Positions 3,727-34,276 of a stretch of DNA of 34,276 bases are shown piece after piece. The notes beneath the pieces are model-generated. The model worked only from the letters and a program-made list of their open reading frames with translations, ran no database searches and was not told where the DNA came from. Each line of letters opens with the position of its first letter. The stretch's first letter is position 1. The translations under genes and the position numbers were made by a program. The stretch spans positions 1 through 34,276 of the forward strand of contig JAAWEO010000003.1 in NCBI GenBank assembly GCA_022794295.1. The letters run 5' to 3'. This DNA is from Angelakisella sp. GTDB lineage: Bacteria > Bacillota > Clostridia > Oscillospirales > Ruminococcaceae.

Positions 3727-3755
3727 ATTATACCGGTTTTGGGTGCTTTTTACAA
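3727..3755 (-). promoter_or_regulatory. Putative sigma-A promoter of uvrC
   Basis: Minus strand TTGTAA (3755-3750) - 17 nt - TATAAT (3732-3727). Confidence 0.6.
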
Positions 3756-4290
3756 GACCCCTCTTTTTTTGGGGGGCTGTGCTTGGGGGCCGCCTGGGGG
3801 CGGCCTGTAGAGGGTCGAATGGACCGGCCTTATGGGCCGGTCCATTCGAGGGGGGGCGGTTGTTGCAAAACACCCCACTGGGGTGTATTTGCAGGTTGGT
3901 TGGGTGCGGGGCGAGCAGGCTTCTCCTTTCTTTTTTTCTTTCAAAAAGAAAGGAGCAAAGAAAAATGCGCCCTCCGGTAAGATGCGGGGGAATTTCGCCT
4001 GTTGCGACGGGCGACCAGGGCGCCGCCCTGGACCTGCCACCCTTTGAAAAGGGTGGACCTAAACTTTAGACCCTACGGGAGGTTGTGCGAGGCGAAAGGC
4101 GGTACCTGGAGTCTTGGGCTGACAGGAGTCACCTCCATCCAGCCTGTCAACGGTAGGGGAATCGTTTCGCCCTGTGCTCGTCAGGACTCCAGGCACCCAC
4201 TATCCCTTTCGCACACCGTTAAGGCGCGTTAGCGCCGGGTAAGGTCTGAGGGTCTGTCAGCGGCCATCAGGCCGCCGGGGAGGGTGGAAA
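3743..4290. repeat. Hairpin-rich intergenic element (composite of at least five hairpins plus a large imperfect palindrome)
   Basis: Hairpins 3815-3849, 3870-3886, 3923-3955, 4015-4031, 4037-4056; large imperfect palindrome about 4073-4249; right end recurs inverted at 31461-31600. Overlapping ORFs lack recognisable domains. Confidence 0.7.
3815..3849. repeat. Perfect 15-bp inverted repeat, 5-nt loop
   Basis: TCGAATGGACCGGCC ttatg GGCCGGTCCATTCGA. Confidence 0.9.
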
Positions 4291-4292
4291 AA

Positions 4293-31460: not shown

Positions 31461-31600
31461 AGACCCTAAGACCCTACCCGCCGGCGGCCCGGTGGCCGCT
31501 GACGGACCCTACCCGCCGCTTCGCGGCTTAACGCTGTGCGGGGCTTGGCTTCTGCCTGGAGTCTTGGGCGGCAGAGGGCACGGCGATATAGCCTCCCTTT
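31461..31600. repeat. Second copy of the 4150-4276 repeat, opposite orientation
   Basis: GGCGGCCCGGTGGCCGCTGACGGACCCTACCCGCCGCTTCGCGGCTTAACGCTGTGCG...TGCCTGGAGTCTTG aligns with the reverse complement of 4276 to about 4150. Confidence 0.7.
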
Positions 31601-31668
31601 TTCGGGCTGGGGAGCGGGACGGGGTAATTTTTCCGGGGGACCGGATCACAACAAAGAAACCTTAGGTA

Positions 31669-33931: not shown

Positions 33932-34000
33932 CCCCGGCCCGCAGGCCCTTAGCCGCGAAGCGGCTCCGATTTTCGCCGCAGCGAAAATCACCTTATCCGG
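33932..34000. repeat. Structured direct repeat, copy 1
   Basis: CCCCGGCCCGCAGGCCCTT AGCCGC-GAA-GCGGCT CC GATTTTCGC-CGCA-GCGAAAATC ACCTTATCCGG. Confidence 0.85.
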
Positions 34001-34210
34001 CCAACGAGCCTCCGGCCGCCAAAGCCCGGACGCTAGTAATCGGCAGCACATTTTTATGGCGCCACCTAGCCCAGCCGCCTGGCGCTATCAGTAGGAAAAT
34101 ACAGGTAATAGATCAAGGTACTGCCCACAACGGACCTCCAAACCGTGTGTGAGATCAGGCGGCCCCGTGGGTCAACTGCCCAAGGCCGGAGCCTTTGGCC
34201 GCCACCCAAA

Positions 34211-34276
34211 CCCCGGCCCGCAGGCCACTTGCCCGAAGGGCTCCGCTTTTTTCCGCAGAAAAAAGCACCTTATCCG
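34211..34276. repeat. Structured direct repeat, copy 2 (reaches window end)
   Basis: CCCCGGCCCGCAGGCCACTT GCCC-GAA-GGGC TCC GCTTTTTTC-CGCA-GAAAAAAGC ACCTTATCCG. Confidence 0.85.

Follow-up and report, generated by a model that had tools for sequence, protein, structure and literature searches.

A candidate family of BIME/BOX-like intergenic mosaic repeats with covarying hairpins in an Angelakisella genome

BIME/REP repeats are high-copy, intergenic, palindromic and mosaic, with stems of 5-13 bp, short loops and alternative stems distinguished by complementary changes (PMC3733652), and the text of the same survey makes no mention of Firmicutes or Clostridia (PMC3733652). BOX elements of Streptococcus pneumoniae are modular intergenic repeats that form stem-loops if transcribed and vary in the copy number of an internal module; furthermore, they possess IS-like terminal inverted repeats and are enriched between convergent genes (PMC3049150). 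The element described here, which lies downstream of tex in an Angelakisella draft genome and at many other sites, resembles BIME/REP in being high-copy, intergenic, palindromic and mosaic with complementary stem changes, but differs from them as it carries no GTAG/CGTC tag beside its stem-2 hairpin, no RAYT was found in the genomes bearing it, and it forms an ordered composite of ~1 kb instead of units of 20-40 bp. With BOX it shares ordered modules and an internal unit whose number varies, a likeness of description and not of boxA, boxB or boxC sequence, whereas the number and size of the modules differ and no terminal inverted repeats were found in the element. Likewise, it is reminiscent of MITEs as a non-autonomous, dispersed intergenic repeat, yet a repeat search revealed no terminal inverted repeats between the two ends of a full copy. 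Its covarying hairpins also recall the structured RNAs of Rfam, although no gathering score was reached and its copy number and orientation are unlike those of a regulator. Our searches of the open-access literature, outside which most subscription papers lie, returned no description of this element or of such repeats in this bacterial group.

The analysed window is a whole contig of 34,276 bases (G000:C124), whose end coincides with the window end, from the draft genome (G000) of an uncultured gut-type Clostridia bacterium, of 2.39 Mb in 307 contigs and 85.5% completeness. The tex product displays the Tex domains (Pfam), and its closest relatives, to judge by the two best protein matches (85 and 82% identical), are Angelakisella-type Oscillospiraceae. 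Copy 1 starts at 33932, 33 bp 3' of the tex stop codon, and copy 2 at 34211, a spacing of 279 bp; CCCCGGCCCGCAGGCC opens both copies and ACCTTATCCG is found after the second hairpin in both, so that the letters match exactly the initial annotation, which had reported two copies 279 bp apart with common flanks and two hairpins. Head module A of copy 1 (33932-34020, + strand) comprises the hairpins GGCC-CGCA-GGCC, AGCCGC-GAA-GCGGCT (stem 1) and GATTTTCGC-CGCA-GCGAAAATC (stem 2), followed by ACCTTATCCGGCCAACGAGCCTCCGGCCGCC. Module B (CAGTAGG..., ...CCAAGGCCGGAGCCTTTGGCCG; 34021-34205, + strand), of which the genome holds at least 40 copies, connects it with head module A of copy 2 (34211-34276, + strand), which breaks off with the contig after CACCTTATCCG. 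Stem 2 occurs as variant v1 in copy 1 (33968-33989, + strand) and as variant v2, GCTTTTTTC-CGCA-GAAAAAAGC, in copy 2 (34245-34266, + strand), both of 9 bp with a CGCA loop. As had been claimed, the two differ on both sides at three pairs, namely 2 (A-T/C-G), 7 (C-G/T-A) and 8 (G-C/T-A), and stem 1 is likewise changed on both arms, being shorter in copy 2 (GCCC-GAA-GGGC). Automated repeat finding recovered both direct repeats (38 nt at 84% and 23 nt at 87%), and DNA as well as RNA folding recovered the head hairpins, with z of -2.8 to -3.4. Perfect 9-bp stems with a 4-nt loop occur three times in the whole window, two of them with the CGCA loop and belonging to copies 1 and 2; first-order simulated sequence yielded 0.33 such stems and none with CGCA. 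In the five relatives read (Tex 67-85% identical), tex is followed by other sequence, in which no copy of the repeat was seen.

The feature had been delimited as a two-hairpin repeat beside tex. While the hairpins are indeed there, the element to which they belong extends over ~1 kb, comprises many modules and is not specific to tex. A full copy of ~980 bp (reference G000:C28, locus L216, positions 356-1335) consists, in this order, of the head hairpins, module B, a module with a long 13-bp hairpin (CTTTGGTTACTTTCTGTCGCAACAGAAAGTGACC...), further hairpins and a tail, and ordered ~1-kb copies are present at several loci. The element is probably non-coding, although the longest open stretches in the reference copy reach 122 codons. 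The head and module B form a unit of ~278 bp (277-279 bp apart) that is found in tandem at the tex locus and several others, in v1-v2, v2-v1 and v2-v2 combinations; thus, the spacing of 279 bp is intrinsic to the element. The mosaic character is further seen in alternative middle segments following the same head, and in stem-1 and stem-2 variants that occur in all four combinations, albeit with association. The tail module also exists on its own, twice within the window: at 4139-4276 (+ strand), corresponding to reference positions 847-975, and, on the opposite strand, at 31480-31612 (- strand) in the intergenic space before tex.

Other repeats share this genome. The intergenic space 3729-4292 harbors a second hairpin-rich family (window positions 3780-4080) followed by the solitary tail module; its letters include GGCCGCC...GGCGGCC, TCGAATGGACCGGCC/GGCCGGTCCATTCGA, a GCTTCTCCTTTCTTTTT-type hairpin and CCACCCTTTGAAAAGGGTGG, it also ends contigs C4, C9, C207, C244 and C254, and its CCTTTGAAAAGG hairpin displays matched arm changes in the congeners G007 and G004. 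A third family (GATTGCAAGGAGAAAAGCGCAAGGAATCC...GGGCGCGGCGACTTTAGGG) likewise breaks contigs of G000 (C7, C8, C15, C222 and C224).

Further copies had been expected genome-wide. An exact pattern matched 58 heads in G000, and covariance model R1 located at least 150, a lower bound set by the scoring cap. Placement and contig ends were assessed in 72 contig sequences or stretches (799 kb). In the contigs read, 98.7% of the repeat bases lie outside predicted genes (1.3% overlap; genes, called with a simple codon-score script, occupy 81% of the sequence), and the heads point in the same direction as the upstream gene in 37 cases and in the opposite direction in 52 (n=89). Two thirds of the scorable contig ends (84/126) have the element within 300 bp, and for this reason the end of the window is repeat-induced, as the initial annotation had supposed. 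If this fraction applies to all 614 ends, ~200 copies would have been broken by assembly.

Among the 96 heads read, seven of which come from the congener G007, stem 2 is exactly v2 in 52 and exactly v1 in 25. No intermediates between v1 and v2 were detected in G000, where only single uncompensated mutants exist besides them, and both variants sit on otherwise near-identical flanks. The stems of G007, GATTTCCTC/GAGGAAATC and ATCCCCGCC/GGCGGGGAT, are again of 9 bp with CGCA, giving four variants in two species that all retain stem length and loop. Over 20 distinct sequences, eight of the nine pairs exhibit two-sided changes and 99.4% of the cells are paired (controls: 0/500 shuffles, and 50-63% paired when slid), a covariation that, with four variants, amounts to few independent events. 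The covariation claimed from the two copies downstream of tex therefore holds in one respect, as two-sided changes keep the pairing across species, but v1 and v2 are two fixed variants and not independent compensatory evolution, and the two copies alone prove little.

Stronger evidence of covariation comes from the long hairpin. Across several genera, 12 of its 17 pairs display two-sided changes and 98.7% are paired, in an alignment that was fitted to the model, includes certain palindromes a second time as read from the other strand and hence leans towards structure; within the genus, 5 to 6 pairs are changed on both sides. The inner pairs (CTTTC/GAAAG) are nearly invariant and the outer pairs vary. 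Two matched forms, GGTTACTTTCTGT/ACAGAAAGTGACC and GCCTTCTTTCTGT/ACAGAAAGAAGGT, coexist in G000. At G000:C8:6-38 and G000:C44:41-73, the long hairpin has an outer stem otherwise typical of G007, as might be expected either from transfer or if the two forms had a common ancestry.

Each species read has its own letters on the same architecture. Among the ten genomes of the genus the head was found only in G000 and G007, with one marginal match in G001; the head covariance model gave 19 matches in one congener. A family-wide head search scored 34 candidates per genome, and the exact head sequence had no match in genome_contigs. By covariance model, the long hairpin occurs in eight of the ten genus genomes (one marginal). 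Lower-scoring matches extend to a further genus of the family and to four other families of the order, with as many as 54 in one genome. A strict class-wide pattern had matched G000 alone, as it fixed the outer stem, which varies, and the covariance model then found the other genera. G003 contains 15 copies of the long hairpin and one full-length Y1_Tnp. In G005, of the same genus, 75 weaker matches are found, many at contig ends, which suggests a high-copy version of the element particular to this genome.

The strongest indication that the element was inserted or expanded as a unit is an orthologous site 3' of a gene that we take, from reading its sequence, to be argS; it is a single site, compared between different species. 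The gene order there is kept in four congeners. The space 3' of argS measures ~1.1 kb and holds the element in G000; in G004, G001 and G008 it is short, at about 50-130 bp, while that of G003 accommodates a different hairpin-rich insert including a homologous long hairpin.

How perfect stems with differing letters are maintained admits more than one explanation. One is template switching at quasipalindromes, in which replication copies one arm onto the other. This mechanism is documented as a source of perfect stems and as a means of keeping them perfect (PMC8794818), and would act without selection on folding; multi-pair differences between v1 and v2 on near-identical flanks, with no intermediates, are what such copying would leave behind. 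As a full account we consider it a serious possibility that nevertheless falls short of even odds, since the CGCA loop and the exact 9-bp length are kept in all four stem-2 variants, and the near-invariance of the inner pairs of the long hairpin next to its variable outer pairs suggests an additional constraint. Template switching and selection on the fold are not exclusive, and we give selection on the fold, possibly aided by template switching, a slight edge over template switching on its own, given that the loop and the length of the stem are conserved as well. The initial annotation had proposed selection on an RNA or cruciform structure. Selection on RNA is not supported as stated, given that heads occur in both orientations and that template switching gives the same pattern (PMC8794818). 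A structured non-coding RNA or mRNA-end element, whose transcribed hairpins would stabilise or terminate transcripts, would accord with the stable folds (z -4.3 for the full copy, -2.8 for the head) and with the start of copy 1 so close behind tex, but is unlikely: of 89 heads, 52 are turned towards the 5' end of the adjacent gene, unlike the orientation of a 3' UTR, and the use of both orientations rules out an mRNA-end element with a set direction. A copy number of at least 150 per genome also argues against this role, as do the Rfam searches, in which nothing rose above the cut-off for the window, nor at a relaxed threshold for the full copy and a congener copy (best: queA, 22.7 bits versus a cut-off of 52.6).

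The repeats could also be REP/BIME elements mobilised by a RAYT (REP-associated tyrosine transposase), since BIMEs likewise consist of palindromes that are abundant between genes and grouped in mosaic fashion (PMC2817692, PMC3733652). We regard this origin as highly improbable here. The stem-2 hairpin is flanked by TCC and by ACCT or TCC, and neither GTAG nor CGTC was present in the stem-2 flanks of 82 distinct heads. Furthermore, the Y1 transposase (Y1_Tnp, PF01797) is absent from the element-bearing G000, G004 and G007, incomplete MAGs in which loss in assembly gaps is possible, whereas G001 and G009 possess full-length Y1_Tnp yet no or marginal element matches. In G001 (same genus, 4.0 Mb, 6 contigs) the situation of the element-rich genomes is reversed: the Y1 transposase family is matched 15 times, in many cases with nearly the same score, and the long-hairpin model not at all. 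Chimeric assembly or misassembly of repeats near contig ends was considered too, as most copies lie within 300 bp of such ends. Complete copies inside contigs C28, C197, C210 and C283, with unique sequence on both sides, refute an assembly artefact, and related versions exist in independent genomes including G003 (about 50 contigs), which leaves it a negligible probability.

We therefore favor, with a probability of roughly 0.68, a new family of intergenic mosaic repeats akin to BIME and BOX, non-autonomous and dispersed, in which the shape of the hairpins persists. The two copies downstream of tex would represent two 5' units in tandem (head hairpins and module B, ~278 bp) of such a dispersed mosaic repeat. 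The element may insert or spread between genes in either orientation, whereby stem length, loop and flanks would persist while the letters of the stem undergo matched changes on both arms or entire hairpins are swapped. Copies presumably spread as DNA by means of a trans-acting enzyme or recombination, and spread by recombination only could suffice; no reverse transcriptase was found in G000 and G007, both incomplete MAGs. Likely, it is a folded single strand, DNA at replication and possibly RNA, that is recognised or kept, and the importance of the fold is supported by the cross-species covariation of the aligned hairpins. More speculatively, and with considerable doubt on our part, these repeats might belong to a lineage-specific class of large intergenic elements in Oscillospirales, in which hairpins act as interchangeable cassettes, swapped or re-perfected as units into species "dialects" with stem length and loop fixed and letters free, and which would depend on a mobiliser unlike RAYT.

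By rough extrapolation, the element contributes several percent of the genome of a gut-type bacterium and accounts for much of the break-up of the draft assembly into 307 contigs. It extends the BIME/BOX kind of repeat to a group for which our literature searches had found no description. With at least 150 copies per genome and sister species bearing different, structurally equal hairpins, it constitutes a natural set that could serve to separate selection on folding from palindrome repair by template switching.
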